A stretch of 64,000 bases of DNA, from assembly GCF_003999255.1 (NCBI RefSeq), contig NZ_CP034791.1:1776501-1840500 (forward strand), given 5' to 3'. A program made the position numbers and the translations under genes. A model generated the notes under the pieces. It saw nothing but the letters and a program-made list of their open reading frames with translations, was not told the origin of the DNA and made no database searches. Positions 22,285 to 42,955 of the stretch are shown here, in pieces (within the stretch, counting starts at the first letter, position 1; every line of letters starts with the position of its first letter). This DNA is from Caldicellulosiruptor changbaiensis (GTDB lineage: Bacteria > Bacillota > Thermoanaerobacteria > Caldicellulosiruptorales > Caldicellulosiruptoraceae).

Positions 22285-22290
22285 TTACTA

Positions 22291-22745
22291 TCTACCTCCC
22301 ATTTTATTTTACATCCCTTCATGGGCGCCCATGAGAGGTTAATGCCATTGTAACATGAAATCTTTTTAAGTACAGGTTGCAATATTTTTTATATTCTTTT
22401 GTATATTATCTTATTTTCATATAAACTTTATTATTTAAAACAGGCAATATGCAAATTGTTATATTTACTAATATTCTCCTTGGCACTTTCACCTCAATTT
22501 TACTTTATTAATTTTCATCCTGTCAAACTCGTTTTTTCTTTTTTTTTAGTTAATTTTAAGCAATTTTTAGCTATCAGCTCTCTCTATCTTCAAATATCTC
22601 TAAATTTCTTAAATTTTCTCATGTTTTTTCGCAAACAAAATGCTGTCCCACCCCTTGGAAGCAGCTTTCTAATCCTCTTTAAAAAATTTTTAAGACTCTA
22701 TCCTTTTCTATTCTCATCAAATTATTATACAAAATTTGTTATTTT
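22291..22745 (-). repeat. Leader/MMPL-end repeat, copy 1
   Basis: First of four copies of a roughly 450-bp unit: hairpin near the start codon (22312-22345), promoter (22497-22526), terminator (about 22640-22665) and a worn 50-bp remnant of an MMPL gene 3' end (about 22690-22735). On the minus strand it leads into the RlpA-like gene. This copy is the most diverged. No gene lies here. Confidence 0.75.
22497..22526 (-). promoter_or_regulatory. Conserved leader promoter, copy 1
   Basis: TTGACA (22521-22526), 18-bp spacer, TAAAAT (22497-22502). The same boxes and spacing occur in all four repeat copies. Confidence 0.65.
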
Positions 22746-25790: not shown

Positions 25791-27419
25791 TTAATTCACA
25801 AATGGGCATTTATATGCACCGTAGTTGCTTTCTACATACGACTTACTTCGTGCTTGGTGAATAACCCGATCGTAACCTCCTGTTGTGCTTTCATATACTA
25901 TATAATTTCCATTCTGATCTCTTTTATAGAAAATCATTACATGGCTGCTGTTACACAATATATCGCCCTGCTGTAAAGAGGAAAAACTAATTTTAGTAGA
26001 TATATTCATTAATCCAGTTGTGTTATATTTTTGAGACAAACCCCAGCACCTGCTTACAAATCCAGAACAGTCAACTCCAGCTGTTCCCCCTACATATCCA
26101 GGAGCATTTGTACAAACATTTCCAGCTGCATATCCATCTTTAATTTTGGTATCAAAACCAGAAAAAGAATCCCATCCGCCCCAGCAATACGGAACTTGAT
26201 AGTAATACGTATTGTATGATGTTATGAAAGATGGTCTTTTCCATAAACTGGGATTTGCAACCTTTGAACCATCATAATTTTGTTTTGAACAATACCATTT
26301 GTAATTATTATATTGTTGAGCAGTTAGAATTATTTGGCCTCTGGTTATACTGGAAGCTATCGCAGCGGGTAAGGTTTTTTCTGCAGACTGCTCTGTTTCA
26401 ATTTTGCTACTAATTGCATTTTCTCCACTTCCTAAAGATTTTGTGTATTCTATATATTGTTCGCTTGTCATCCATGAGTCAACCATTAATACATATACCC
26501 TCTTCTCACATGGCAACAAGACAAAGACGTTCCCATTATCAAGTACTACATCTTTTTGCGGCCAAGAATATTTAACATCCGGAATTTTTACGAGCCCTTC
26601 TATATTCTGTGTTTTTGAATTTAACTTAACTATCCATTCGCCATAATCATTGGTTATCTTCCAAAATTGAACAAAACCATTTTTCCCAATATAATAATAG
26701 GCACTGTATTCGTCGACAAGCCATCTCGGAAATTCGCTAACCTCAAGTGTATTGATGTAAGCCTTTCGATTAGAAACATTTGCTTTCCATATACATCCAT
26801 CAGACGACATGTTTCCTTCTTTTTCTTCTGTTACGTATAAGTTATTCTCTCTATACTCACCATTTTGTCTTTTACCCAAAAAACAAGTTTTCATTTTGTC
26901 TCCAGCAAGTACTACAAAAGGCCCTTTTTCGCTTACTCCAAAGTAAGCAAATGGTTCTAACCGTATCTCTTTATTTAAAGAGGCAATTTCAATTGTGCCA
27001 TTGTTTATTGTAATTAAAGTATTCAGACCAGCATTAAATAAATATATCTTGCCGTTTTTATCAACTGCCATACCATGAATCCATTGCCCTTCTGGTATAT
27101 TAATTTTTTCAATTAAATCACCTTTGCTCTTACTGTATACAAGTACTCTATGATGAACATTATCAAGAATGTAGATTTTATCTCCTTTCACATCAAAAGC
27201 ATTAGGTCCTTCGTGAGAACCATAACCCGCCATCCCTGTGTATTCAATACCTTCTTCGGATACAGGAATATTCAATATAGTCTTAAAATTTGGAAAATCA
27301 TTGCTTTTGCTGACTGAAGGTATAGTAGCTGTAGTTTTTTGAGGCAAAATAGAAAAAACACTTATAATCATTAAAGTACATGTTATTAAAATTGCTACAA
27401 TTTTTTTGTAGTTTTTCAT
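25791..27419 (-). CDS. Secreted NHL-propeller protein with C-terminal NlpC/P60-like peptidase
   Basis: 542 residues. A Sec signal peptide (KIVAILITCTLMIISVFSILP) is followed by an NHL-type propeller (GPNAFDVKGDKIYILDNVHHRVLVYSKSKG; GQWIHGMAVDKNGKIYLFNAG). A short linker around residues 330-355 leads to a C-terminal cysteine peptidase of NlpC/P60 type: the nucleophile is Cys451 in GVDCSGFVSRCWG and the His is 493 in SSHVMIFY. It should act outside the cell on peptidoglycan peptides or on a rival's wall. ATG follows aggtaggaggaatagagt at the end of leader copy 2, so it is the cargo of that copy. Confidence 0.82.
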   Translation of the reverse strand: MKNYKKIVAILITCTLMIISVFSILPQKTTATIPSVSKSNDFPNFKTILNIPVSEEGIEYTGMAGYGSHEGPNAFDVKGDKIYILDNVHHRVLVYSKSKGDLIEKINIPEGQWIHGMAVDKNGKIYLFNAGLNTLITINNGTIEIASLNKEIRLEPFAYFGVSEKGPFVVLAGDKMKTCFLGKRQNGEYRENNLYVTEEKEGNMSSDGCIWKANVSNRKAYINTLEVSEFPRWLVDEYSAYYYIGKNGFVQFWKITNDYGEWIVKLNSKTQNIEGLVKIPDVKYSWPQKDVVLDNGNVFVLLPCEKRVYVLMVDSWMTSEQYIEYTKSLGSGENAISSKIETEQSAEKTLPAAIASSITRGQIILTAQQYNNYKWYCSKQNYDGSKVANPSLWKRPSFITSYNTYYYQVPYCWGGWDSFSGFDTKIKDGYAAGNVCTNAPGYVGGTAGVDCSGFVSRCWGLSQKYNTTGLMNISTKISFSSLQQGDILCNSSHVMIFYKRDQNGNYIVYESTTGGYDRVIHQARSKSYVESNYGAYKCPFVN

Positions 27420-27447
27420 ACTCTATTCCTCCTACCTATTTTATTTT

Positions 27448-27482
27448 GCATCCTTTCATGAGCACCCATGAAAGGTTGATGC
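27448..27482 (-). promoter_or_regulatory. Leader hairpin near the start codon, copy 2
   Basis: Stem cctttcatg / catgaaagg with outer gcat / atgc pairs and loop ggtgct, ending about 28 nt before the start codon. Equivalents sit at 22312-22345 and 35336-35370. Copies 1 and 4 carry different bases in the stem (loop ggcgcc in copy 1) yet still fold. Confidence 0.55.
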
Positions 27483-27675
27483 CATTGTAACTTGAAATAT
27501 TTTAAGTATAATAAACAAATAGACAAATAATGGTAACAAACATAAACATGTTGCAATATTTTCTTTTTTATATTCCCTGGTATACCATCCTATTTGCATA
27601 TAATCTATCTCATTTACGAGAGGCAATATGCAAATTGCTATATTTATTAATATTATCCTTGGCATTTTCACCTCA

Positions 27676-27705
27676 ATTTTACTTTATTAATTTTCATTTT
27701 GTCAA
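27676..27705 (-). promoter_or_regulatory. Conserved leader promoter, copy 2
   Basis: TTGACA (27700-27705), 18-bp spacer, TAAAAT (27676-27681), giving a leader of about 250 nt. Confidence 0.65.
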
Positions 27706-27808
27706 TCTCGTTTTTTAAAGTTAATTTTATGCAAATTTAAGCTATTATCTCTCTCTTTCTTTTAATATCTCTAAATTTCTTGAATTTTCTCATGTTTTTT
27801 GCAAACAA

Positions 27809-27840
27809 AAAGCTGCCCCCTTCTCTTGGAAGCAGCTTTC
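27809..27840 (-). terminator. Terminator of the MMPL remnant, copy 2
   Basis: Stem agctgc(ccc) / (gaa)gcagct followed on the minus strand by tttttgtttg. Equivalent hairpins occur in all copies. Confidence 0.65.
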
Positions 27841-28297
27841 AAATTTTTTCGAAGTTCCTTTTATATTATATCCCTTTTTACTCTTATTAAAGTACTATAC
27901 AAAAACGGATGTAGGAAAAATGCAGACAGAACTAACTCTATTACAATGCAGATATAAACTTCTATCAAAGCTAAAATTCTTAATAAAAGTACAGTTTATG
28001 GAAACATTTGGTTTGCCAACGAAATAAAAAAATATAAACTATGTCTTTAAAGATTCTTTAGGAAATAAACCAGCTTCGTAAATTTCTTGACATAATGGAT
28101 CAGAAGCATAAAAACTACCTGTTTTGATATATGCATAAGCTCTACAGCCACCTCTACAAGTAGAGAGAAATTTACACATTGAGCAGACTCCTTTTAATTG
28201 ATTTACATTGATATTTCTTATTTCCTCCATAACAAAACTGTACCAGCATTCTTCTATAGTTTTTTCTCTAATATTCCCAATAATTAATTCATTTATA

Positions 28298-29411
28298 GAG
28301 GTTGTTGAATAAAAGAAATAACCATATAAAGTAAACATAGTAACAAATGAAAAAAACCCCTTGTGTTATAATTTAATTTAAGAGAAAACCACAACAAAAC
28401 ACAAGGGGGAAAAGATATACTCATGAATATTAAAGCACAAAATAAGAAATTTTTAAAGCTACTTTTTGTAGTGAAAAAGGTTACTGAAGCTCTGACAAGG
28501 AGAATAAAGCACAATAGAAGAGGACGCCCAAGGAAATTTAATTTGTTTCAAATAATAGCTTGTCTGGTTTACAAAGTTAAGAAGGGGATAAAGAGTTTCA
28601 GAGAATTAGAATATCGAATAAATCAAGACACAGAGTTTAAGCAAGTAGTAGGTATAGAAGAAAGTCCGGACTATTCATATTTTGCGAAGTTGTCAAGAAA
28701 AATAGAAAAAGAATACATGCAAGATATAAAAGACATATTAATAGCTAAGATAGAACCTGATATGAGTATAGCGATAGTAGATTCTACACCTTTGAGAAGT
28801 GCCAAAAATGATTCAGAAGCAAAAATAGGTATACATATTACAATAGGATTTTACAGGGGATACAAATTACATCTTTTGTGTACAGGTAAAGAAGAAGTAA
28901 TACCACTTTTCTGGATTTTAACAGGGGCAAATGAACATGACTCAAGACAAGAAGAGCTTTTATATAGGGCATGGGGCTTTGGCTGTGAGATTGTATTAGC
29001 AGATGCGGGATACGATTGTAGCAGATGGTTTAATATAGCAAATGAGCTTAAAGTTAAATTTGTTGCTGGGATAAACAAAAGAAACATGAAAGATAAAAAC
29101 AATGTTAAGAATGTTTTTAGAAGAAATAACATAAGATTTTTAGAAACTGAAGAGGGCAAAAAGCTATACAAGCATAGAACAAAGATTGAAAGACTATTTA
29201 GTAAATTAAAAGGTGAATATAATCTTGAGAATGTAAGGCTCAGGAGGTTTAAGAATTATAAAAGGTATATTGATTGGATACTAATTACTTTTTTGTTTGA
29301 GCAACTTCTCAGAAAAGTAGAAGGTAAGAAGTTTTCTTTCGCATATGAATGGAATCAATAACTTTTGCTCATTTTATGTATTATTGGTAATAATTTTTAT
29401 TCAACAACCTA
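28298..29411 (+). mobile_element. IS4/IS5-superfamily insertion sequence inside the radical SAM gene
   Basis: 1.11-kb element with 16-bp terminal inverted repeats (aggttgttgaataaaa at 28299-28314 and its complement at 29395-29410) flanked by 12-bp direct repeats (aattcatttata at 28286-28297 and 29412-29423). It carries one intact transposase gene, so the insertion looks recent. Confidence 0.92.
28423..29361 (+). CDS. IS4/IS5-type DDE transposase
   Basis: 312-residue transposase with an RNase H-like DDE_Tnp_1 catalytic domain: first Asp in SIAIVDSTPL, second Asp in EIVLADAGYD, and the Glu in TKIERLFSKLKGEY (the Y-x2-R-x3-E-x6-K-type signature). The N-terminal half contains the helical DNA-binding region (RRGRPRKFNLFQIIACLVYKV). 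The frame is full length and runs nearly the whole element. ATG at 28423 follows aagggggaaaagatatactc. No frameshift or missing catalytic residue is seen, so it is probably active. Confidence 0.92.
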   Translation: MNIKAQNKKFLKLLFVVKKVTEALTRRIKHNRRGRPRKFNLFQIIACLVYKVKKGIKSFRELEYRINQDTEFKQVVGIEESPDYSYFAKLSRKIEKEYMQDIKDILIAKIEPDMSIAIVDSTPLRSAKNDSEAKIGIHITIGFYRGYKLHLLCTGKEEVIPLFWILTGANEHDSRQEELLYRAWGFGCEIVLADAGYDCSRWFNIANELKVKFVAGINKRNMKDKNNVKNVFRRNNIRFLETEEGKKLYKHRTKIERLFSKLKGEYNLENVRLRRFKNYKRYIDWILITFLFEQLLRKVEGKKFSFAYEWNQ

Positions 29412-30259
29412 AATTCATTTATATTTAATAAACCATCACATGGTGCTATATTCCCATTAGAATCAATTCCTATTATGTTTGGAAATGTACAGTAATAACC
29501 TTTCCCATACTTTCTTGTTGATAATACTTTTGGTATTAAACCAGGTGGTAAAATAAGACTTAGCTCGGTAGAAGTATTTTTACTTACAAAATATTCTGCT
29601 ATATTACTAAAAATATCCATTTTTTCTTTTACTGATACATCTATTGCAGAACAAGCTCTTCCTGTTGGAAGTAATGGAATTAATGCATATGTATCAACGT
29701 TTAATTCACAAGCTAAATCATATAACTTGAAAATTTGATTTTTGTTATCTTCCATTAATGTCGTTGCCATTATCACTGTAGTATCAGAATTTTTAAAATA
29801 TCTCTTTGCTAAATTTAATGCTTTTATTCCTTCTCTAAAAGCTCCTATTTTATTTCTTATTTTATCATGTGTTTCTTCTAATCCATCTATACTAACTTGA
29901 AAAATCTTCAAATTAAATTTTGATAATATTTTTATTATTTCTTCGTCGATAGTAATTCCATTAGTACTCACTGAAATTCTCAATCCTTTATTATGTGCAA
30001 ATTCACAAATTTCTAATATGTTTTCATTTAGAAAAGGTTCTCCACCATTTAAATACAAGTCTAAACAACCTGCCTCATATAACTGTTCAATTATCAATTT
30101 AATCTCGTTAACAGAAAGTTCACTTTGATAATCAAAATTTTTATTTGCTACATAACAATGTTTGCAAGCTAAATTACATTTGCGAGTAACTTTAACCGAA
30201 GCAGATAATATGGGTATGCTACTGAAAATATCTTCACTATTTACAAACATTTTCAAAAT

Positions 30260-31366
30260 TCACTCTCCTACTATACAATCCGGCGGGAAAAGACCCTCTT
30301 CATATAGTTTTTGGCACGTTGGAAATGGTGCATGTATATCTTTATAATACGCATACGCTGAGGCACGACAACTACCTGCACATGTACTTAGAAATATACA
30401 TTTACTACAAACACCTTTAATATCTAATCTATTTAGTTCGGACAACTTTGAAAATACATTAGACCTTTCCCATATATCCAAGACAGAAGATTCTCTTATG
30501 TTTCCTGCAATATATTCAGGAAAAGTAAAAAAACCATCACATGGAGCAACATCACCATTTGCTTCAATACCTATGATATTAGGAAATGCACAACATACCT
30601 CAAATTGCTTATGCAGACCTTCTTCTCGTAAATCGGCAGGTACTAAAGCTGGCGGAATAATACTATTTTCTGCTAACTTGAATTTTCCTTTATATTTTCT
30701 ATAAGCACTAAACAAATCATTAATTGCTAATTTTAATTCTTGCGAAGTTACATCTAGTTCACTATTAGCTCTACCAGCTACTAAAAGTAAAACTAAAGAA
30801 TATATATCAACTTCATATTCAACTACAATATCAATTATTTTATTAATTTGATCATAATTTTCTTTCATAAGACAAGTAGCTATTGTCACATTTTTAAAAT
30901 TCAACTCTTTTAATAATTTTAAAGCATTTATTGCTTTTTCGAAAAATCCATCACCTCTAATTTTATTATGAATTTCCTTAGGTCCATCAATACTAATTTG
31001 AAACATAGAAAAGTTTATATTTTGTATTTCTTTTAGTATATCTTTTGTGAGTAGAGAACCATTAGTACTTATTAATATTTCCATATTTTTATAGTACGCA
31101 TATTGTAATATCTCTACTATATCTCCTCTTGCAAATGGCTCACCGCCTGTAAAAAAGATTTTCTTTACTCCAAATTCATCACTATAAACGTCTATTAGCT
31201 TCTTAATTTCTCGAGTAGTTAACTCATTATTAAATGGTTCACCTGAGTTACCATAGCAATGTTTGCAAAATGCATTACATCTTTTAGTTACTCTTATTGA
31301 AGCAGCAAGTATTGGTATATCACCTAATATCTCCTTAATTCCAATAGAAGTATCCACTAATTCCAT
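30260..31366 (-). CDS. Radical SAM/SPASM peptide-modifying enzyme
   Basis: 368 residues. The radical SAM cluster motif is Cys30-x3-Cys34-x2-Cys37 (TKRCNAFCKHCY), then FFTGGEPFARG; the C-terminal SPASM region has DVAPCDGFF and CSKCIFLSTCAGSCRASA plus a late CQKLYEEG, enough cysteines for two auxiliary clusters. Such enzymes make C-C, thioether or D-amino-acid modifications in ribosomal peptides. It starts one base after the PqqD-like gene and 3 bp separate it from the second radical SAM gene, with which it shares the layout and much of the sequence. The substrate is most likely the 25-residue peptide at 32895-32972. Confidence 0.9.
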   Translation of the reverse strand: MELVDTSIGIKEILGDIPILAASIRVTKRCNAFCKHCYGNSGEPFNNELTTREIKKLIDVYSDEFGVKKIFFTGGEPFARGDIVEILQYAYYKNMEILISTNGSLLTKDILKEIQNINFSMFQISIDGPKEIHNKIRGDGFFEKAINALKLLKELNFKNVTIATCLMKENYDQINKIIDIVVEYEVDIYSLVLLLVAGRANSELDVTSQELKLAINDLFSAYRKYKGKFKLAENSIIPPALVPADLREEGLHKQFEVCCAFPNIIGIEANGDVAPCDGFFTFPEYIAGNIRESSVLDIWERSNVFSKLSELNRLDIKGVCSKCIFLSTCAGSCRASAYAYYKDIHAPFPTCQKLYEEGLFPPDCIVGE

Positions 31367-31630
31367 TTATTCATCAATCCTTTCGATAAGATTCCCTTCT
31401 ATCAATAAATTCAGGCAATTTTTTATATCTTCAATAATCATTTTTTTATCTTCATCAGATTGAGGCGTATATTTTTCAAAGAACTTTTTTACAATTATAT
31501 TCTCATCTACAGGTTCTCTACAACATTCCCATATTTCAAAAGCTGTTTTGTTTAAAGCAATTCCATTACTAAATAAATATCCATTTTTAAATATTCTATA
31601 ATCCACTTTTACTTGTTTATATTTAGGCAT
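31367..31630 (-). CDS. PqqD-like RiPP recognition element protein
   Basis: 87 residues forming a PqqD-type winged helix: beta hairpin FKNGYLFSNGIALN, the family signature LNKTAFEIWECC, then helices ending in LLIEGNLIERI. PqqD-like proteins bind the leader of a precursor peptide and present it to radical SAM enzymes. It is free-standing rather than fused. ATG follows ggggggtgtttag; the stop is directly followed by the radical SAM start codon, showing tight coupling. Placement between exporter and two radical SAM genes supports the RiPP assignment. Confidence 0.88.
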   Translation of the reverse strand: MPKYKQVKVDYRIFKNGYLFSNGIALNKTAFEIWECCREPVDENIIVKKFFEKYTPQSDEDKKMIIEDIKNCLNLLIEGNLIERIDE

Positions 31631-31658
31631 CTAAACACCCCCCATTTTAATCAGTATT

Positions 31659-32831
31659 TCAATATATCCTTTCAAAAAATAACAAAACAAAAACTGCTAA
31701 ACCCGAAATTAAAATAAATACAGCACTTACAAACAAACCATATGAAATGCCTAAAACCTTTATAAAGTAACCAATTCCTATACCTGCTAAAATTTCGCCG
31801 CTCGCTTCTGCAAATTGAAAAAAAGATAATGTAGTAGCCCTTATTTCAGAATCAATAAATTTATTTAGATAACTTTGAAGATAAGGTCTAAGAATAACTT
31901 CTAATACAAAAAAGGACACTAAACATAAGTATGAGATAATATTTAAGTTTATAAAGATAGCAACAGTTAGTATTATAAACATTGAAATTTTTAGATTGCC
32001 AATTATTAATAAATCATTCTTTTTATTGTTAATCAACATGTTTTGTAAAAACATAAACGCAAGACCAAAAATAGCACTAATTATATATATATTGCTTATC
32101 CAAAAAACGTTGAATTTTCTATATTTTAAATATGTCTGATAAAATCTTTCTATACCATCAAATCCTATTGCAAATAAAAACATTGCTAATGACAATAACA
32201 ATAGAGTTTTACTTGACATCACATAAGAAACAGATAATTTTATTTTATTTATTATTGACTTATTGATATTCGAATTATGAGATACTGGCAACGATTCAGG
32301 TACAAAAATACATGTTATTAAGGTAGCAATTAAATATAATACTGCTGACACTAAAAATGGCATAATAGTATTCATTTTGTACAAATAGGTTATAAAAATT
32401 GCTCCAATAATACTTCCAGCAATCAAAATAATGTACATTTTTCTCAACTCATTTTCAAGTTTATCGACTTTCCCTTTCAGAATCAAATGATCAGCTAACC
32501 ATGCCTCTAATGCTCCAGATTCGAAAGAATCAGCTAATCCCATTATTAATACTGAAAATACAAACATATAAATTGTATTTCCCAATGAAAATAAGAAAAA
32601 AGCTATAAAATATAAAAAAGCTGATAAAAATAATGAAACTTTTCTACCATATTTATCTGCAAATGCCCCAAGAGGAATTTCTGTGATAAACCTAACTGTT
32701 TCCAAAACTGTACCTAATATACCAATAAAAAACAAAGAAATTTTGTTGTTTGACATATGCAATATCCAAATAGGAAAAAATAACCCTTTTGCAGTGCCTT
32801 TTAAAAAAATTGTTACATAATAAGCTAACAT
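31659..32831 (-). CDS. MFS transporter of the RiPP operon
   Basis: 390-residue twelve-helix major facilitator protein (FITEIPLGAFADKYGRKVSLFLSAFLYF carries the loop 2-3 signature G-x3-D-x2-GR-K). It lies between the precursor candidate and the PqqD-like gene. The likely job is export of the matured peptide or self-protection, which is inference; MFS exporters do occur in RiPP clusters though ABC exporters are commoner. ATG is preceded by gcgagggggtttt. Only 63 bp, holding a strong hairpin, separate it from the peptide gene. Confidence 0.85.
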   Translation of the reverse strand: MLAYYVTIFLKGTAKGLFFPIWILHMSNNKISLFFIGILGTVLETVRFITEIPLGAFADKYGRKVSLFLSAFLYFIAFFLFSLGNTIYMFVFSVLIMGLADSFESGALEAWLADHLILKGKVDKLENELRKMYIILIAGSIIGAIFITYLYKMNTIMPFLVSAVLYLIATLITCIFVPESLPVSHNSNINKSIINKIKLSVSYVMSSKTLLLLSLAMFLFAIGFDGIERFYQTYLKYRKFNVFWISNIYIISAIFGLAFMFLQNMLINNKKNDLLIIGNLKISMFIILTVAIFINLNIISYLCLVSFFVLEVILRPYLQSYLNKFIDSEIRATTLSFFQFAEASGEILAGIGIGYFIKVLGISYGLFVSAVFILISGLAVFVLLFFERIY

Positions 32832-32856
32832 AAAACCCCCTCGCGTTTCTTGTTAG

Positions 32857-32889
32857 TAGTGGCAAGTCACTAAAAGTGACTTGCCACTA
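32857..32889 (-). promoter_or_regulatory. Strong hairpin between precursor peptide and transporter genes
   Basis: Perfect 15-bp stem (tagtggcaagtcact / agtgacttgccacta) with a 3-nt loop, starting 5 bp after the peptide stop. No T-run follows, so it is not a canonical terminator; a 3'-stabilising or partial-attenuation role that raises peptide mRNA over enzyme mRNA is likely. Confidence 0.8.
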
Positions 32890-32894
32890 ATGAT

Positions 32895-32972
32895 TTAAAC
32901 TTTGTGACCGCCCATTACTACTAAACCTCTAACTACCCTTTTAACAACAGGTTTAGAGTAATTTTTCATCAT
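32895..32972 (-). CDS. Candidate RiPP precursor peptide (25 residues)
   Basis: A 26-codon frame begins ATGATG after gagaggaggtgctattta, an excellent ribosome-binding site with ideal spacing, and ends at TAA 32895-32897. The peptide starts MMKNYSKPVV, has the basic stretch VKRVVRG in the middle and ends LVVMGGHKV. It contains no Cys, Thr or Trp, so lanthipeptide, sactipeptide and Trp cross-link chemistries do not fit; epimerisation or a cross-link at aliphatic, Tyr, His or Lys side chains remain possible. It is the first gene of the operon with exporter, PqqD-like protein and two radical SAM enzymes. It could alternatively be a regulatory leader peptide. Confidence 0.75.
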   Translation of the reverse strand: MMKNYSKPVVKRVVRGLVVMGGHKV

Positions 32973-33013
32973 TAAATAGCACCTCCTCTCTTGTTAGAAT
33001 ATTTTGTAATGTT

Positions 33014-33067
33014 ATAAAACGCTCATTATGAGCGTTTTATGTAATAATTTAGATGATCAAGTGTCAA
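33014..33067 (-). promoter_or_regulatory. RiPP operon promoter with operator-like palindrome
   Basis: TTGACA (33062-33067), 17-bp spacer, TTACAT (33039-33044). A 27-bp palindrome (33014-33040; arm ataaaacgctcat, one central base) overlaps the -10 box and the expected start site, 40 bp before the peptide ATG. This suits repressor control; no regulator gene is seen next to it. Confidence 0.6.
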
Positions 33068-33243
33068 ATCATTCTTTTGTAAGATAAAATTGAACCTCAA
33101 TAATTATATATATGCATGTTTTAATATTTTCTTTTTTATATTCCCTGGTATACCATCCTATTTGCATATAAACTATCTCATTTGCGAGAGGCAATATGCA
33201 AATTGCTATATTTATTAATATTCTCCTTGGAATTTTCACCTCA

Positions 33244-33273
33244 ATTTTACTTTATTAATTTTTATCCTGTCAA
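33244..33273 (-). promoter_or_regulatory. Conserved leader promoter, copy 3
   Basis: TTGACA (33268-33273), 18-bp spacer, TAAAAT (33244-33249). It could add readthrough transcription to the RiPP operon. Confidence 0.6.
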
Positions 33274-33387
33274 ACTCGTTTTTTTTTTTTTTTTTTAGTT
33301 AATTTCAAGCAATTTTTAGCTATAAGCTTTCTCTTTCTTCAAATATCTCTATATTTCTTAAATTTTCTCATGTTTTTTCGCAAACAA

Positions 33388-33415
33388 AAAGCTGCCCCCT
33401 TCTCTGGAGGCAGCT
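33388..33415 (-). terminator. Terminator of the MMPL fragment, copy 3
   Basis: Stem agctgccccc / ggaggcagct (one bulge) with ttctct loop, followed on the minus strand by tttttgtttg. Confidence 0.7.
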
Positions 33416-33441
33416 ATCTAAATTGCTTTTTAAAAGCATTT

Positions 33442-33725
33442 TTAAACTATATCTCTCTTTATCCTCATCAAACCATTGAACAAGAACGGCAAAAGGAAAA
33501 ATGCAAGCAGAACAAGACCTATCACAACACAGATTGAAACCTGCATTAATGTCAAAATCCCAGATGGCAGCATTGCCGCAAATGTGCCGGCTAAAATTAT
33601 CACCGCTGATGTTACAACATGACCAATGTTTGCTGAGGTAAGTCTCAGTGCTTTGTTTATCTCCAAGTCTTTATATTCATAAAATCTTATCAGCAAGAAC
33701 ACACTGCAGTTTATTCTAAAGTATA
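33442..33725 (-). pseudogene. MMPL/RND-type transporter, C-terminal fragment
   Basis: Encodes the last 86 residues of an MMPL-family membrane transporter (FLLIRFYEYKDLEINKALRL to the end KRDIV), nearly identical to the C-terminus at 35764. Homology at DNA level runs to about 33725 and then stops abruptly in unrelated sequence, so it is a truncated duplicate without its own start. Confidence 0.88.
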
Positions 33726-35306: not shown

Positions 35307-35564
35307 ATTCTTATTCCTCCTACCTATTTTATTTTGCATCCCTTCATGAGCACCCATGAGAGGTTGATGCCATTGTAAGTTGAAATCTTTTAAGTTACGG
35401 AAAAACAAATAAACATATAATAGTAGCAGACATAAACTTGTTGCAATATTTTCTTTTAATATTTTCTGGTATACCATCCTATTTGCATATAATCTATCTT
35501 ATTCGCGAAAGGATATATGCAAATTTCTATACTTATTAATATCATCCTTGGTATTTTCACCTCA

Positions 35565-35594
35565 ATTTTACTTTATTAATTTTTATTCTGTCAA
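35565..35594 (-). promoter_or_regulatory. Conserved leader promoter, copy 4
   Basis: TTGACA (35589-35594), 18-bp spacer, TAAAAT (35565-35570). Confidence 0.65.
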
Positions 35595-35710
35595 CCTCGT
35601 TTTTTTTTTTTTTTTTAGTTAATTTTAAGCAATTTTTAACTATCAGCTCTCTCTTACTTTAAATCGCTTTAAATTTCTTTAATTTTCTCAATATTGTTAC
35701 ACAAACAAAA

Positions 35711-35736
35711 AGCTGCCACCTTTTATAGGTAGCAGC
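35711..35736 (-). terminator. Terminator of the MMPL gene remnant, copy 4
   Basis: Stem gctgc(c)acc / ggt(a)gcagc with tttta loop, followed on the minus strand by tttttgtttg. Confidence 0.7.
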
Positions 35737-35763
35737 CTTTTATTTTTTTTTAAAGATACTTTT

Positions 35764-36960
35764 TTAAACTATGTCCCTTTTTACCCTCATCAAAGTATTA
35801 TACAAAAACGGCAGCAGGAAAAATGCAAGCAAAAGAAGACCTATCACAACACAGATGGAAACCTGCATTAATGTCAAGATTCCAGATGGCAGCATTGCTG
35901 CAAATGTGCCGGCTAAAATTATCACTGCAGATGTTACTACATGTCCTATATTTGCTGAGGTAAGCCTGAGTGCCTCATTTATCTCCAAGTCTTTATATTC
36001 ATAAAACCTTATCAGCAAGAATACACTGTAGTCTATTCCAAGAGCTAAGAACACAACAAAGGTGAAAAATGGCACGCTCCAGTTAAGTGCTTCGTACTTG
36101 AAAATGCCTTTGAAAATCATCTCTGTGATAGAGAGTGCAAGGTAGTAGTCGACAAAAACTATTACTACCATCACACCTGCATTAAAGATTGACCTTGAAA
36201 TAATGAACATGAGTATTAAAATGCTTATTATCATTATTAGTCTTAAAGTCTTGAAATCCTTAAAATAAATGCTTCTCAAATCGTGGTTGCTTGATGATAT
36301 TCCTCCAACTCCCCATGAAACAAATTTAGTGTCTACAAACTCTAAAGAATTTTTCAAAACTTTTTCCACGTTGTCAACAACATCAATTGCTTTGTTTGTA
36401 TATGGGTTTGTGTCAAGAATCAAGATTATCTTTGTTATTGTTCTATCTTTATTCATATATGAATCTAAAGCCTTTTTGAAGCTATTACTTTTTATAGCCT
36501 CTGGTGGAACATAAAAGATGTTTGTTGTCTTGTATCCTTCAAAATAACTCTTCATACTCTGCATAGAATTTGCCATCTTGTTAAGTGCATCAGAAATCTG
36601 CAAAAGCGCTGATTTTAAACTTGTAAACCCTGTCTGAAGTTCATCAACTTTTTTTAGAATCTGTTCTTTTTGTTTGTCAAACTCCTGAATTTTTGAATAC
36701 ATAAGATTTACACCTGAGATTATTTCCTTTTGCCCCTTGTCAATTTTGTTATAACCACTTACAACTTTTCCTTGAGCATCTGCAAGATGTTTGGTAGCTA
36801 CAGCAATACTGTCAATCGAATTTGAGATAAAGTTTTAAAGAATTATCTGCCTCTGAAATTTGTAATGAAATCCTTTCACATTCAGATGAAAATTCTTTTA
36901 GCTTAAGGGCAAGTTTGCTGCTTTCACTTTCAATCTTCGATAGAATCTCTGCAGCCATAA
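35764..36960 (-). pseudogene. MMPL/RND-type transporter, 5'-truncated and frameshifted
   Basis: The open part (35764-36702) is a coiled-coil/periplasmic-type segment (KKVDELQTGFTSLKSALLQISDAL) followed by six membrane helices and the MMPL block FLALGIDYSVFLLIRFYEYKDLE; it ends KRDIV. Upstream the same protein continues (SNSIDSIAVATKHLADAQGKVV), then a one-base shift near 36836 and LKLKEFSSECERISLQISEAD, and all homology stops near 36960. MMPL transporters export lipids or peptides across the membrane; about 1000 residues is usual, so over half is missing. It is the fullest of the four remnants. Confidence 0.83.
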
Positions 36961-37249: not shown

Positions 37250-38866
37250 TTATTTAACTAATATTACTTCTGCCATTGTTGTAGGATCATTTATTGCTAA
37301 AAACCAACAACCCAAATAATTTATTTTATCAATATTTTTATCTACTTTTCCATTAACTTGAATATCAAATAAAAATCTATTGCCCTGTTTTGGATTAATC
37401 AATATAACATTCCAAGGAATTTTTAGCTGAAGTAAAAAGCTATCATCGTTTTTTGTTATTTGTACTTTATCAAGTATATTTTCTAATATCTTATCTTGAT
37501 TAACATTATACTCACCTTCAATTATTCTTTTCTCCCCACTAACATCTTTGATTTTAATATCTATCATCTTTAATATTTGATAATTGTAAAAACTTAAAAT
37601 AATTTCCATATCTTTTTTATACCAATGCTCTAATTCTGATGATGGTAATTTTATTACAATAATGAAAAAACTATAGTCCCAGCTAACTCCAATAGAAATA
37701 TTTTCTCCATTTAAAATTATTTCATTCCTTTCATATGTTTCTGTATTCAACAAACAACATTTCAAATTATAAAATAATATATTTTCGCAAGATTTTCTAA
37801 TTTTATATGGGCAAATAAGAAATATACCTTCTCTCAATTTAAAAATAGCTGTTTTTATTATGTCTGCTTTGTTACTAAAAATAAACTTTGAAGCATTATA
37901 TTTCAATAACTCTTTAATAACTTTTTTTCTAAAACCTTCTTTTACATTATGAAGAGAGTTATGATAGACATTTTGGAGTTCAACTATATATTTTTGATAC
38001 ATTCCTTTAGGAAATATTTCTGAAATTAACTTTAATGCAAATAGAACTTCACCTACTATATTTAGTTTTTCGGCATTTTTTAATATCTCCTCCCAAACAA
38101 TCTTATTTCTATACTTATTCTCAAAAAGTAAAATATCTATAAGTAGTAATAATCTTAAGTATGGCTCCTTCCCTTCTGTTAACATAGAATAATAATCCAA
38201 GATAAAATCCTTTGAAAAATGATATAATAAATATAAAAAATTATTGTTAACATCTAACCGATAGAAAATTTTCCCTTTAACTTTATATTGTTCTGCTTTA
38301 TTTATCAATTGTTTTATAAATTCATTTTCATCATCCCAGTTACATGTAAATTTTAAATGAACTTCAATCGGAACATTAACTAGCATATTCCCAATAATTA
38401 ACTGTTTGTTCATAGAAGGTAAATGATTATGTCCTCGTAGTTTTAAATCATAAACGTTAATTAAATTATCACTTACATGTAATCCTTTTTCATCTTTATA
38501 TCCTAACTTACCTAAATGGTCTAATAATACTGGTAAATCGTCACAAGTAACTAAAATATCTATATCACTTGTTTTTCTAATTTCTGGGTATTTATATAAA
38601 TCATAGCTTAGTAAAATACCTTTCAAAAACAAAACTTTTATCTTCGAACAAATTTCATTTATATTTAACATCTCGTTAAATATAATATCATTGATAAATT
38701 TTTGAAATTTTATTTTTGCGGTTGTTCTATTTAAGACTTCGTCATCTATATTATATTTTGAAAATAATACTCTATCTAGTTCGTAACTTTCAGCAAATTT
38801 ATATAGAAGACTCTCATCTTTTATATAATTTATCAAGTAATTATATAAAACCTCATATACTTTCAT
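37250..38866 (-). CDS. Nucleotidyltransferase (NTP_transf_5 type) with C-terminal CBM9-like domain
   Basis: 538 residues. The N-terminal 350 match the uncharacterised nucleotidyltransferase family often found in peptide natural-product clusters: KVLFLKGILLSYDLYKYPEIRKTSDIDILV, with Asp101 and Asp103 as metal ligands and IEVHLKF near residue 165. The C-terminal 190 residues are beta-rich and end in NDPTTMAEVILVK, resembling the CBM9/DOMON fold. It likely transfers a nucleotide to a peptide or small molecule; the substrate is unknown. ATG follows aggaggagaatggtatata and lies 29 bp behind the ABC gene, so it is in that operon. Strong AT bias marks the whole cluster. Confidence 0.75.
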   Translation of the reverse strand: MKVYEVLYNYLINYIKDESLLYKFAESYELDRVLFSKYNIDDEVLNRTTAKIKFQKFINDIIFNEMLNINEICSKIKVLFLKGILLSYDLYKYPEIRKTSDIDILVTCDDLPVLLDHLGKLGYKDEKGLHVSDNLINVYDLKLRGHNHLPSMNKQLIIGNMLVNVPIEVHLKFTCNWDDENEFIKQLINKAEQYKVKGKIFYRLDVNNNFLYLLYHFSKDFILDYYSMLTEGKEPYLRLLLLIDILLFENKYRNKIVWEEILKNAEKLNIVGEVLFALKLISEIFPKGMYQKYIVELQNVYHNSLHNVKEGFRKKVIKELLKYNASKFIFSNKADIIKTAIFKLREGIFLICPYKIRKSCENILFYNLKCCLLNTETYERNEIILNGENISIGVSWDYSFFIIVIKLPSSELEHWYKKDMEIILSFYNYQILKMIDIKIKDVSGEKRIIEGEYNVNQDKILENILDKVQITKNDDSFLLQLKIPWNVILINPKQGNRFLFDIQVNGKVDKNIDKINYLGCWFLAINDPTTMAEVILVK

Positions 38867-38895
38867 TATATACCATTCTCCTCCTAAAATAAAAT

Positions 38896-40500
38896 TTAAT
38901 TGAAATCAATTTGATAAATTTTATTAAAATATCTCAATAAGTTCCTTTCATGAGTAACCATAATAATAGTAGTGTTTGGATCTTCTAGCAGACTGGAAAT
39001 AACTTTTTTCCCCTCTTCATCTAAATTTGCAGTTACTTCGTCAAACAAATAAAATTGCCTCCCTTTGAGCATTGCTCTTCCAAGAGAAATTCGTTGTTTT
39101 TGCCCACCTGATAAATAAATTCCATTATCACCCGCACGTTTGTCTTTTATTTCTTCCAACATTAGTTTTTTCATAACGCTCTCTAAAGTATTTATTTCTT
39201 TGTTGAATTTCACCATCTTGATATTATCTTCCACTGAAAAGTTAAATATAAATGGCTGTTGAGAACAATACCCAATTCTTTCTCTTAAACTCTCTAAATT
39301 TATTTCCTTGAGTTCAATCCCATTAATGTAAATTTCACCTTCATAGTCCTCATAGAAACCTAAAAGAATTTTTAAAAAAGTAGTCTTTCCAGACCCATTT
39401 TCACCTATTATTGCTACTTTATCTCCTTTTTTTATGTCAAGAGAAATATTCTTGAAAATATAATCTTTATCAAACCTATATCCTATATTTTTTATCTCTA
39501 CAATTTCTATATCCTTTGTTAGTACTTTTCCTCCATATCTTTCTGGAGAGTTTATTAAATCTAATATCCTCTTTGAGAATATTTTAAGTTTATAAAACTG
39601 GTTAATCGTATTAATGATGTAATTTATCATTCCCTTTATCAAAATTGAATATCCAGTTATTTTTATAAAATCTCCCAAGGAAATTTTATTTCTTAACATA
39701 AAATAACTGCCCAAAATATACATAAATAGCATTGAAATCTGAGAGAAAGTATCATCCATTGTCTTTAAAATAACTGAAGTTTTGATCTTCTCTTTTACAT
39801 ACTTTTCAATAAAGTCTTGGTAGCACTTTTTTATCATTTCCTTTATTTCCTTTTCTAATGAATGAACTTTAATATACAAAAAACTTTGAACAACTTGATT
39901 TTCTAATTCTCTTAATTCATCTTTCCTCTCCTGACCATATTTTGTAATTCTCTGGTTTTGTTTTTTTGTGATTAGAGGAATTATTATAGGAAGTAAAACT
40001 AATATAAAAGATAATATTGAATAAAAAATTTCTATTTTTATCATTACATATAGTACGTAAAGTATGAATATACAAGAAAACAAAATTTCAACAACATCCA
40101 AAATTGCAAATCTAAATAATCTTATATCATCATTAAATCTTGTCAGCACTTCACCAACTGTCAATTTATTTAATTTCAAAAGCTTTTGACACAAAAATTT
40201 TTTGTAGATATTAGTATCGTGTAGGACTACTACCTTCCCAAATAATAAAGCTCTATATATAGAAGATATGCACGGCAAAACAAAAATAACAATACACAGA
40301 ATAAATAGAAGATTAATTATGTTGTTTTTCAATAAATAAAAATCTCTTTTTAATGCTGCATCCATATAAACTCCTAATTTTGATACCAAATATATGTCTA
40401 CAATATTTTGTAGAGAAAAAATAATTATATCACACAACAATACATACCAATATTTAACCAAAAAATCCTTAACTAATCTATTTTTTTCTTTAATCACCAT
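38896..40500 (-). CDS. ABC transporter, fused membrane and ATPase domains (second half)
   Basis: 534 residues: six-helix type I exporter membrane domain (to about residue 320) and an ATPase with Walker A GENGSGKTTFLK, Q-loop YCSQQPF, signature LSGGQKQRISLGRAM, Walker B FYLFDEVTANLD and H-loop MVTHER. All motifs are canonical. With the preceding gene it probably forms a heterodimeric exporter. It starts 17 bp after that gene behind gcgaggtagtttttt. No peptidase C39 domain is present, so any leader cleavage would need another enzyme. Peptide export is inferred from neighbours. Confidence 0.88.
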   Translation of the reverse strand: MVIKEKNRLVKDFLVKYWYVLLCDIIIFSLQNIVDIYLVSKLGVYMDAALKRDFYLLKNNIINLLFILCIVIFVLPCISSIYRALLFGKVVVLHDTNIYKKFLCQKLLKLNKLTVGEVLTRFNDDIRLFRFAILDVVEILFSCIFILYVLYVMIKIEIFYSILSFILVLLPIIIPLITKKQNQRITKYGQERKDELRELENQVVQSFLYIKVHSLEKEIKEMIKKCYQDFIEKYVKEKIKTSVILKTMDDTFSQISMLFMYILGSYFMLRNKISLGDFIKITGYSILIKGMINYIINTINQFYKLKIFSKRILDLINSPERYGGKVLTKDIEIVEIKNIGYRFDKDYIFKNISLDIKKGDKVAIIGENGSGKTTFLKILLGFYEDYEGEIYINGIELKEINLESLRERIGYCSQQPFIFNFSVEDNIKMVKFNKEINTLESVMKKLMLEEIKDKRAGDNGIYLSGGQKQRISLGRAMLKGRQFYLFDEVTANLDEEGKKVISSLLEDPNTTIIMVTHERNLLRYFNKIYQIDFN

Positions 40501-40517
40501 AAAAAACTACCTCGCTG

Positions 40518-42125
40518 TTAATAAATTTCAGCAATTTCGTTTACTGATTGGTTTTCGATTCTCCAAATTTTATTTACACAACTTGCCAATTCAATATTAT
40601 GTGAAACAATTATTATTGTTTTTTCACTTTTACAAAGAATATCTTTCAAAATTTCTATACTTTTAGTATCAAGATAATTAGTCGGTTCATCAATTATTAA
40701 GATTGAAGACTTTTTCAACAACCCTCTTATTATTGATATTTTCTGTTTTTGCCCATCTGAAAGTTGATTAATTTTTTTTGATAAAATATCATCCAAACCA
40801 AACAAGTGCAGTAAACTTCTTTTTCTATCTTCCAAATTGTCTTGAATCATCATATTAAGGTTATTATCTATATCCTGTGTAAAGAAAGTAAAATTTTGAG
40901 GAATAAATGAAATGTGTTTACTGAAACTCTTAAAATCTACTTTTGAAAGTGGTACACCATTAATAAGAATATCACCTTTAAAAGATTCATAAAGTCCCAT
41001 TATAAGCTTCAAAAGAGTAGTTTTTCCACTTCCATTAGAACCCATAATCAATATTTTATCTCCTTTGTTGATACGAAAATTTAATTTGTTGAAGATACTC
41101 TTAGAATTTTCATAGGAAAACGAAACATTTTTAAACACAATATTTTCAATTTCATTTATTTGTATCATATTCCCATATTGATCTTCTATATCAAAATTTA
41201 GTATTTCACTAATTCTTTCAAAAGAACTTTTTTCAACCCTCAAATTTTGAAAACCTTTTGCTGCTACTTTAAAATTATCAATTACAATAGGAAAAAGTGA
41301 TATGAACACTACAACCAAATCAGGAGTTATTAATTTTTTATATAAAAATAAACCTAACATGATATATGTACCAAATTTTGCTATATTGTTGCATAAGTTG
41401 TAAAGTATATCTTCAATTGTTCCTACTTTTTCCATTTCATTTGCACATTTTTTGCTGACTTCTTCCAAGGAAAGAAATCTTAAAGAGGCCCATTCATAAA
41501 GATTATATGCTTTTATTACTTCAATTCCTTCAAAAGACTGTTTAATAAAACCTGTTAACTCATCATCTGCACGATGACTTTCCTCAACTATTTTATTCAT
41601 ATATTTTATTGTAAAAAACAGTGGAAATATAGGTAAAATCCAAAGACCAAAAAAAATAACTGAAAGAGAAAAATTTTTTAGACCCAAAAAAATAAAATAA
41701 CCTGCTAAACATATTAAGGCTGAAAAAACTGAAGAATAATGAACATAAAAACACTTTACTATATCATTAAAGTCCTGCTCTAATCTATTTAAAATCTCAC
41801 CTTGTCCATATTTTTCTATTAATGAATATTTGTTATTCAAAAACAACATAAATAACTTTTTCTTTAGTTCAATAATTCTATTCTCTTTAAAAAATTCAAT
41901 TAACAATGAAAAAAATAATTTGCCAGAAATAATAATAAGATAAATTAAAAGAAAGGTAACTACATTACATATAAAAACCTCCATATCTTTTTGGATAGCT
42001 AATGAAAATAATTTAGCAAAGGTATTAGAAATATATATGTTTACGATACCCTCAATTAAATTTATAAAAACAATGAAAATAGTAGGTAATAACAATACTA
42101 TTCTTACATAGTATTTAAAATTCAT
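40518..42125 (-). CDS. ABC transporter, fused membrane and ATPase domains (first half)
   Basis: 535 residues with six membrane helices and an ATPase: Walker A GSNGSGKTTLLK, Q-loop FIPQNF, signature LSDGQKQKISIIRG (Gly to Asp change at the third position), Walker B ILIIDEPTNYLD and H-loop IVSHN. The altered signature beside the consensus one in its partner suggests an asymmetric heterodimer with one degenerate site. I take the ATG at 42125 after ggaagggtgcaaaagg, not a start 39 bp upstream. First intact gene of the ABC-ABC-nucleotidyltransferase operon. Confidence 0.88.
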   Translation of the reverse strand: MNFKYYVRIVLLLPTIFIVFINLIEGIVNIYISNTFAKLFSLAIQKDMEVFICNVVTFLLIYLIIISGKLFFSLLIEFFKENRIIELKKKLFMLFLNNKYSLIEKYGQGEILNRLEQDFNDIVKCFYVHYSSVFSALICLAGYFIFLGLKNFSLSVIFFGLWILPIFPLFFTIKYMNKIVEESHRADDELTGFIKQSFEGIEVIKAYNLYEWASLRFLSLEEVSKKCANEMEKVGTIEDILYNLCNNIAKFGTYIMLGLFLYKKLITPDLVVVFISLFPIVIDNFKVAAKGFQNLRVEKSSFERISEILNFDIEDQYGNMIQINEIENIVFKNVSFSYENSKSIFNKLNFRINKGDKILIMGSNGSGKTTLLKLIMGLYESFKGDILINGVPLSKVDFKSFSKHISFIPQNFTFFTQDIDNNLNMMIQDNLEDRKRSLLHLFGLDDILSKKINQLSDGQKQKISIIRGLLKKSSILIIDEPTNYLDTKSIEILKDILCKSEKTIIIVSHNIELASCVNKIWRIENQSVNEIAEIY

Positions 42126-42240
42126 CCTTTTGCACCCTTCCCCAATAAATATAAGCTTATTCAATAATTCTACTCTGTATTGTTATATAAATTATCTAAC
42201 AACCAATTACATGTTACTTTTGAATTAATCACTTTTTCTT

Positions 42241-42618
42241 CTAAATTTCAATCTGGCAAAAGTAATCTGTAATAGGTGCATTTATTGATTTATAACAAGT
42301 AATTGAGGTAGTATTGTTTTGATCTAAAAATACTTTTAAAGGTAGATTTTTATAATTATATACTAAGCAAGAAAGAATTAACTCCTTTTCTTTTTGCATT
42401 ATTATTCTAAATTTATTGTTTTCGAAATGATATAGTTCCGGTATATATGCAACATTCAAAGTTTTATTGTAATTCTTTAATTTTGAAACGAATTAATTGT
42501 AATTATTTTGTATTTTAAAATTTGTTTTTATATCTATTAAGAAAGTTCTCACATTATTTTGCATTACATCTTTATAGTTTTGTAAATTTATCAAAGTCTA
42601 TTAATTGAATTAACATAA
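42241..42618 (-). pseudogene. Degenerate small gene upstream of the ABC exporters
   Basis: An ATG near 42618 preceded by taaggtgtgatt starts MLIQLIDFDKFTKL; after one frameshift the frame reads VMQNNVRTFLIDIKTNF, meets a TAA at 42493-42495 and goes on FVSKLKNYNKTLNVAYIPEL to a 72-codon tail ending DYFCQIEI at 42241. So a gene of about 125 codons with one frameshift and one stop is the simplest reading. I do not recognise the family; its position suggests a former member of the peptide cluster. Confidence 0.4.
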
Positions 42619-42674
42619 TCACACCTTACAATTAAATATACTACTATCAATTCATATCGTTAATGACAATTTAG

Positions 42675-42955
42675 TCATAATTTTCTCTCATAAGACAAGT
42701 GGCTACTGTCACATTTTTAAAGTTCAATTCTTTTAAGGACTTTAAAGCATTTATTGCTTTTTCAAAAAATCCATCACCTCTAATCTTATTATGAATTTCT
42801 TTAGGACCATCAATACTAATTTTAAATACAGAAAAATTTATATTTTGTATTTCCCTTTAGTATATCCCTTGTAAGTTATAACTACTATTGCTGATTAACA
42901 TTTCCATATTTTGTAGTATGCATATTGTAATATCTCTACTATATCTTCTCTCTCT
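42675..42955 (-). pseudogene. Internal fragment of a second radical SAM gene
   Basis: About 280 bp closely resembling 30856-31137, that is codons of roughly residues 77-170 of the radical SAM enzyme at 30260-31366. Long identical blocks are visible (for example the run coding for the segment around KLGPKEIHNKIRGDG-type sequence). It has small indels and lacks both the cluster-binding cysteines and the SPASM end, so it is dead. It shows that a second radical SAM gene once lay next to the ABC-nucleotidyltransferase genes, or was copied there. Confidence 0.82.

Follow-up and report, generated by a model that had tools for sequence, protein, structure and literature searches.

In the window, which is the whole 64,000-nucleotide stretch of Caldicellulosiruptor changbaiensis DNA analyzed here, a mini-ORF, an MFS gene, a PqqD-like gene and a radical SAM/SPASM gene (radical SAM 1) were found on the minus strand, followed by a second radical SAM gene (radical SAM 2; Table 1). 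The initial annotation had listed the first four genes in this order, and they were found again at 32895-32972, 31659-32831, 31367-31630 and 30260-31366, respectively. The gaps between them are 63, 28 and 0 bp, with 3 bp ahead of radical SAM 2. The annotated gaps of 0-65 bp overlook an insert of ~1.1 kb. The operon is real and conserved: an uninterrupted five-gene version with the same mini-gene (type I) is present in three other genomes of the genus (G001, G002 and G007).

Table 1. Features of the operon and its surroundings, with positions in the window.
Feature	Position	Strand	Basis or remark
Best sigma-70-like promoter, TTGACA-N18-TAAAAT	33244..33273	-	Consensus match, 11/12
Perfect inverted repeat AAAACGCTCAT-N-ATGAGCGTTTT, upstream of precursor	33016..33038	.	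Invariant in 4 genomes, flanks variable
Ribosome-binding site AGGAGG of precursor	32982..32987	-	Sequence; conserved in alignment
Precursor peptide gene, 24 aa, MKNYSKPVVKRVVRGLVVMGGHKV	32895..32969	-	Kept in L028, L029 and L030; YxxPxV motif
Strong RNA hairpin between precursor and MFS gene	32857..32889	-	-25.8 kcal/mol, z = -6.3
MFS exporter, 390 aa	31659..32831	-	PF07690, 78.7 bits
Stand-alone PqqD-like RiPP recognition element, 87 aa	31367..31630	-	PF05402, 24.6 bits (cutoff 23.4)
Radical SAM/SPASM enzyme 1, 368 aa, intact	30260..31366	-	PF04055 and PF13186
Radical SAM 2, N-terminal piece (~283 native residues)	29381..30256	-	Tail of few foreign codons and stop
Insertion sequence, 1,112 bp	28299..29410	+	DDE transposase at 28423-29361 (plus strand)
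ORF with orphaned C-terminal piece of radical SAM 2	28039..28338	-	Native sequence from near 28298
Remnant of second, decayed radical SAM 1 copy (residues ~80-192)	42617..42951	-	Sequence similarity

Radical SAM 1 scored above the cutoffs of PF04055 and PF13186, as did the intact radical SAM 2 of the related locus L028. The CxxxCxxC motif and the SPASM cysteines are invariant in the alignment of radical SAM 1. The dN/dS values of the more distant pairs (0.15–0.29) indicate that the radical SAM 1, radical SAM 2 and PqqD genes are all under purifying selection. The PqqD-like protein passed the PF05402 cutoff barely, and it provides the RiPP recognition element (RRE) found in operons for radical SAM-modified RiPPs (RaS-RiPPs). 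The top fold matches of its single-sequence model were lasso RRE-leader complexes, which, given the low confidence of the model (pLDDT 52) and the weakness of the matches, are a weak pointer at most. The MFS exporter distantly matches tetracycline-efflux models. No operon protein reached the cutoff of an NCBIfam equivalog, and an Rfam scan of positions 20000-46000 gave no match.

In the window, radical SAM 2 is cut by an insertion sequence, which is bounded by 16-bp terminal inverted repeats and has duplicated 12 bp of its target (TATAAATGAATT). This element has many copies in the genome, ~11 of which are near-identical, and L028 holds the empty site. The C-terminal ORF carries the CxxC...CxxxC part of the SPASM domain and the final Cys. 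Because the gene is split, the strain has one intact modifying enzyme; the two SPASM enzymes of the initial annotation exist in the relatives but not in the window. With radical SAM 2 disabled in this way, this strain is unlikely to make the full product.

The mini-gene had been read as 25 codons starting at 32972. However, this first ATG is missing in every intact relative, and L028, L029 and L030 have the second ATG only. Thus, the gene most likely starts at 32969 and has 24 codons. The strong ribosome-binding site attributed to it was confirmed. Three further genomes hold the mini-ORF at the equivalent position, with identities of 100, 100 and 92%, a conservation that is beyond chance. With only 2 changes in 24 codons, the type I precursor is so conserved that its substitution pattern is hardly informative. 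It contains no Cys, Trp, Thr or Glu, and its sole Tyr is within the leader. Its YSKPVV segment, which has the YxxPx[V] pattern, matches the leader motif [Y/W]xxPx[L/V/I/F/A] that is bound by stand-alone RREs (PMC13381572).

The precursor gene is flanked by possible control elements. The inverted repeat upstream of it was found once, compared to 0 in 100 shuffles (RNA z = -3.5), and is a putative operator or 5' UTR hairpin. The promoter-like site was picked by its consensus match, and such sites are no commoner in the region than in shuffles. The hairpin between the precursor and MFS genes is not followed by a T run, and its probable role is to adjust the amount of precursor relative to the enzymes or the stability of the mRNA. 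At the equivalent place, the type II operons described below have unrelated hairpins (z = -9.3 and -5.9).

The same parts in a different order were found in eight genomes of two genera (type II). Besides an 18-aa precursor (MKK[SQ]PII..M..GCD[NS].H), type II operons encode a single radical SAM/SPASM enzyme along with a PqqD-like protein and an MFS exporter. Their mini-ORF lies ahead of the radical SAM gene, with the MFS gene at the end. The Tyr of YxxP is missing from type II precursors, which are under purifying selection (dN/dS 0.10, p = 0.003). The small precursor gene is next to the enzyme genes in 4 genomes with type I and at 7 of the 8 type II loci; the eighth, in G016, retains only the exporter and a PqqD remnant. 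The resemblance between the precursors of the two types is weak and no more than suggestive of homology, as ~4% of shuffles align equally well. Of 515 mini-ORF starts accompanied by a ribosome-binding site at the loci examined, these precursors alone have the motif P[VIL][VIL]xx[VILMA]xxG; as it was fitted to both types, it is no independent proof. A clade of type I and type II radical SAM enzymes was neither shown nor rejected by the tree (p-AU 0.23).

The modifying enzymes are broken at 10 of the 15 loci, and the exporter is still open at 9 of these 10. Retention of the exporter suggests that it also has a protective role. On the broken type II radical SAM genes, changes were too few for dN/dS to reveal relaxed selection.

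Searches of genome and viral contigs with radical SAM 1 gave one distant match (27% identity), and none among the viral contigs. No further operon was recognized in the phylum samples with radical SAM 1, an alignment, the MFS protein and a type II PqqD as queries, where the strongest matches outside the two genera resemble heme-type radical SAM pairs. The exception is one weak PqqD match in G198, at a locus unlike this operon. The plasmid search found only radical SAM proteins of ~29% identity, nearly all from Rhizobium.

The initial proposal that the mini-ORF encodes the substrate of a RiPP operon is well supported by gene order, the RRE-type leader motif, conservation and the purifying selection on type II precursors. 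We consider it quite likely that this is a RaS-RiPP operon with a very short precursor, and we infer RRE binding, modification, trimming, export and biological role as follows. The PqqD-like protein would bind the N-terminal half of the 24-aa precursor via Y-S-K-P-V-V and present the C-terminal part (~LVVMGGHKV) to the two SPASM radical SAM enzymes. These would install at least one cross-link or oxidation without the use of Cys, Trp or Thr. A housekeeping peptidase would trim the product, and the MFS protein would export a short peptide of ~5–10 residues, as in tryglysin. The MFS protein may also be protective and so outlive the biosynthetic genes. Points against this reading are that the operon contains no peptidase gene, that type II precursors have no Tyr of YxxP, that the two precursor types are only weakly alike, that the enzyme tree did not establish a joint clade, and that the type I substitutions are hardly informative.

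The nearest characterized system is the streptococcal WGK operon for tryglysin, which consists of the 21-aa wgkA, the radical SAM gene wgkB, the RRE gene wgkC and the transporter gene wgkD, and whose 7-aa product comes from the few C-terminal residues of the precursor (PMC8092268). Similar to WGK, the operons of this study combine a very short precursor (24 and 18 aa) with a SPASM radical SAM enzyme, a stand-alone RRE and a transporter. Different from WGK, however, they lack the Trp-Gly-Lys motif, no Rgg/SHP regulator was seen, and in type I the exporter directly follows the precursor and there are two radical SAM enzymes. Of the NCBIfam models for WGK (NF050035 for WgkB and NF050069 for WgkC), NF050035 gave 152 bits for type I and 174 bits for type II, compared to its cutoff of 650. 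The view that the operon fits none of the groups considered is correct for the core motif but not for the architecture, which is known from streptococcal RaS-RiPP operons (PMC8092268). That it is apparently undescribed agrees with the NCBIfam result, and no describing paper was found within the literature searched.

Lasso and LPP systems share the leader motif Y-x-x-P-x-[LVI] and a small PqqD-like RRE (PMC13381572), but the operon has radical SAM enzymes in place of a lasso cyclase, leader peptidase or kinase. In the TVG pathway, TvgB makes cyclopropylglycine from valine (PMC9062424). Similarly, a SPASM-subfamily radical SAM enzyme would act here on a Val-/Gly-rich peptide without using Cys or Trp; however, TVGG repeats are absent and a Val preceding Gly is not a conserved feature of type II. 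TVG is a precedent only and not a prediction. Sactipeptides and ranthipeptides were rejected for type I, whose precursor has no Cys to act as thioether donor in the core. The single Cys of type II precursors, in GCD[NS].H, makes thioether chemistry possible there. Streptide-like KxxxW chemistry was also rejected, as Trp is absent from both precursor types and with it the Lys-Trp pair.

A role of the mini-ORF outside RiPP biosynthesis was also considered. As in antibiotic-inducible resistance genes, it could be a regulatory leader peptide, with ribosome stalling and the hairpin controlling the MFS drug-efflux gene while the radical SAM genes act elsewhere. The type I order of mini-ORF, hairpin and MFS gene, the tetracycline-efflux matches and the retention of the MFS gene as the enzymes decay are all consistent with this. 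However, the type II mini-ORF precedes the radical SAM gene with the MFS gene last, the peptide has an RRE-type motif and a PqqD-like gene alongside, and the type I hairpin lacks a terminator T run, all of which render such a role unlikely. Radical SAM genes placed by chance beside a small ORF could in turn belong to heme synthesis, as AhbC/AhbD or NirJ1/NirJ2 enzymes also occur as adjacent pairs, and AhbD and NirJ are among the best NCBIfam matches (~152–162 bits). Their scores are, however, 1/4 to 1/3 of the cutoffs (500–650 bits), heme genes are absent nearby and the PqqD gene sits between the exporter and the enzymes. Moreover, the type I enzymes form a well-supported group of their own that does not include the paired enzymes of other Clostridia. 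We regard heme synthesis as extremely improbable.

PqqA is ~22–24 aa long, and its partners are a stand-alone PqqD and a radical SAM enzyme of the SPASM type. The operon could likewise make a small cofactor-like molecule such as PQQ from its peptide, rather than a secreted bioactive peptide, and the PqqE and mycofactocin MftC models match its enzymes under their cutoffs; for PqqE (TIGR02109) the score was 88.6 bits against a cutoff of 381. Compared to the PQQ pathway, with its ~22-aa precursor, however, the Glu/Tyr pair and the downstream enzymes are missing (no pqqB/C/F-like or mft-like genes were found) and a dedicated MFS exporter is present. The alignment of the precursor with PqqA was not above shuffles, so homology was rejected, and patchy occurrence with frequent decay is atypical of a cofactor. 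A cofactor-like product thus has a small chance of being correct.

For the preferred RaS-RiPP operon, the bond formed is unpredictable because type I precursors lack Cys, Trp and Thr. As type I lacks the residues on which the common radical SAM RiPP cross-links rely, its product would probably arise by a less usual reaction. More speculatively, and less likely than not, the two enzymes may act in turn on this substrate (core near LVVMGGHKV) to form an undescribed RiPP bond, for example at the conserved His, Gly or Val, and types I and II may have branched within a single family that is specific to thermophiles and has GGH or GCD[NS].H as its core.

Thermophiles tend to yield stable proteins, and types I and II supply precursors of 24 and 18 aa as very small and genetically simple substrates of thermophile SPASM radical SAM enzymes. 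Moreover, enzymes have been lost repeatedly while the exporter stayed, which makes self-protection by the MFS protein directly testable. Finally, the window holds traces of a further radical SAM 1 copy that has decayed, in which positions 42668-42853 have 90% DNA identity to positions 30845-31030 of radical SAM 1.

The operon in the window, hereafter type I, is a genuine, hitherto unnamed radical SAM RiPP (RaS-RiPP) operon with an ultra-short precursor, as predicted from its genes, and possesses all of the general RaS-RiPP operon features tested. In agreement with the initial annotation, in which the mini-ORF was regarded as part of a RiPP operon, homologous intact operons all keep a similar small ORF; they occur in G001, G002 and G007, three further genomes of the same genus. 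Their precursors are identical to that of the window in two of the three; the third has V-to-I and M-to-L substitutions. The mini-gene stands, but its proposed length of 25 codons is less likely: the first ATG is absent in all three intact relatives, so that the start at 32969, which gives 24 amino acid residues, is preferred. Moreover, the radical SAM 1, radical SAM 2 and PqqD genes of type I are under purifying selection. Upstream of the precursor gene is a perfect inverted repeat that is unchanged between genomes although its surroundings vary, and the gap between the precursor and MFS genes holds a strong hairpin.

Coordinates of the type I operon and associated elements (window positions unless a locus is named)
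Feature	Position	Strand	Remarks
Precursor mini-gene	32895-32969	minus	first in operon order
MFS gene	31659-32831	minus	second in operon order
PqqD-like gene	31367-31630	minus	third; above Pfam cutoff
Radical SAM/SPASM gene 1	30260-31366	minus	fourth
Insertion sequence	28299-29410 (1,112 bp)		DDE transposase on strand opposite operon; 16-bp terminal inverted repeats; 12-bp target duplication
Radical SAM 1 remnant, one half	L033:7818-8138		adjoins IS110-like transposase
Radical SAM 1 remnant, other half	42617-42951		adjoins another IS110-like transposase
Repeated module copies	22287-22686, 27424-27979, 33110-33709, 35312-36031		intergenic part four times, near 22.3, 27.5, 33.1 and 35.4 kb

The two SPASM radical SAM enzymes originally proposed are found in the intact relatives but not in the window, where an insertion sequence (IS) splits radical SAM 2. 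The broken gene begins 3 bp beyond radical SAM gene 1; its N-terminal piece has ~283 native codons and stops inside the IS, and its C-terminal piece restarts past it. Given that the IS flanks correspond to the unbroken gene at L028 of a relative, that both pieces are 98-99% identical to an intact relative and that the genome contains many further IS copies (~11 near-identical, others at ~94%), the insertion is probably recent; copy number and similarity also point to a recent burst. As the later SPASM cysteines are on the lost part, loss of radical SAM 2 activity in the window strain is very probable.

A degenerate relative, a decayed second copy, was found at three places: in G005, in G008 and at a distant site of the window's genome (L033). 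In this copy, the precursor start is replaced by an IstB-like fragment, with VVRGSVVMGGHKV left over; deletions and frameshifts affect both PqqD and radical SAM 1, and the MFS gene, at ~79% identity, is open. In the window's genome, the radical SAM 1 remnant is cut near residue 80 into two distant halves, likely by chromosomal rearrangement between IS copies. The type I operon fills one slot in an array of repeats. The repeated unit, present in up to four copies that each precede different cargo, is a module joining the 3' end of an MMPL-type (RND) gene to the intergenic DNA after it. This arrangement resembles a tandem cargo array or an insertion hotspot and may explain operon gain and loss at this locus. 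One module copy precedes a 542-aa secreted-looking protein (25791-27419), whose C-terminal part resembles, by eye, an NlpC/P60-type hydrolase. Two ABC exporters lie next to the remnant of a second radical SAM 1, together with a large protein of the NTP_transf_5 (PF14907) type (37250-42164); perhaps another peptide-export operon, this group is retained in some relatives (L028 and, partly, L032 of G005).

A second operon, type II, was identified in another genus (G032, G020, G029 and G015), in the order mini-gene, hairpin, radical SAM/SPASM gene, PqqD-like gene and MFS gene. Its mini-gene, MKKSPIIRQMVVGCDNVH, has a GGAGG site; the G015 version is MKKSL.... The window's genus has a related locus with the precursor MKKQPIIVEMFAGCD[NS][IR]H: G008 holds it intact, and G002 and G001 have broken versions. 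In G016, just the MFS gene and a PqqD remnant survive. Comparison of the 18-codon gene across the two genera gives 6.8 synonymous and 8.2 non-synonymous changes, a dN/dS of 0.10 (p = 0.003, one-sided Fisher test), and the gene thus encodes a real peptide under constraint. Hairpins occur at the matching place after the precursor, with sequences unlike across operons (z = -6.3, -9.3 and -5.9). Type I and type II precursors are weakly similar, their MFS proteins are not close, and enzyme trees decide neither for nor against a common origin.

The type I precursor contains no Cys, Trp or Thr, and its proposed position outside the sactipeptide and streptide groups was borne out; the type II precursor has one Cys. 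PQQ, sactipeptide and streptide identities were rejected for the operon by curated models and precursor residues. The streptococcal WGK operon comprises a 21-aa precursor, a radical SAM enzyme, a RiPP recognition element (RRE) and a transporter, and yields a 7-aa growth-inhibiting product active at 100 nM (PMC8092268, PMC13361665). Its defining motif is absent from the window operon, and the curated WGK score is not reached. By WGK precedent, C-terminal precursor residues would be modified, then trimmed, then exported. The segment YSKPVV of the type I precursor matches [Y/W]xxPx[L/V/I/F/A], the motif recognised by small RREs in lasso and LPP pathways (PMC13381572). Radical SAM enzymes of this kind can work without Cys, Trp or Thr, as TvgB converts valine to cyclopropylglycine (PMC9062424). 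The RiPP clusters of anaerobes, Caldicellulosiruptor among them, were surveyed in 2014; in excerpts of that survey, lanthipeptide, sactipeptide and circularin-like clusters are named for the genus, and the type I operon is not described there (PMC4289311).

All enzymes are intact in 5 of 15 loci. The MFS gene is open in 9 of the 10 loci with deletions, frameshifts or IS in radical SAM genes, some of which share ancestry and hence do not represent ten independent events. In the second genus, the MFS genes at type II loci with broken enzymes still have a low dN/dS (0.13-0.18), part of which may date from before enzyme loss. Most simply, the exporter would be of use even when no product is made, for self-protection or resistance.

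Two further loci were noted. In G036, a single run (L035:8658-10824) combines a PqqD-like gene with two radical SAM genes as well as ABC transporters; no small precursor was found upstream, where an IS sits. In G030 (L040:7053-9520), a 52-aa ORF (MTYVKPTIQTLG...) with a YxxPx[I] motif and a ribosome-binding site precedes a 293-aa protein that looks PqqD-like, together with a radical SAM gene; this may be another RaS-RiPP locus.
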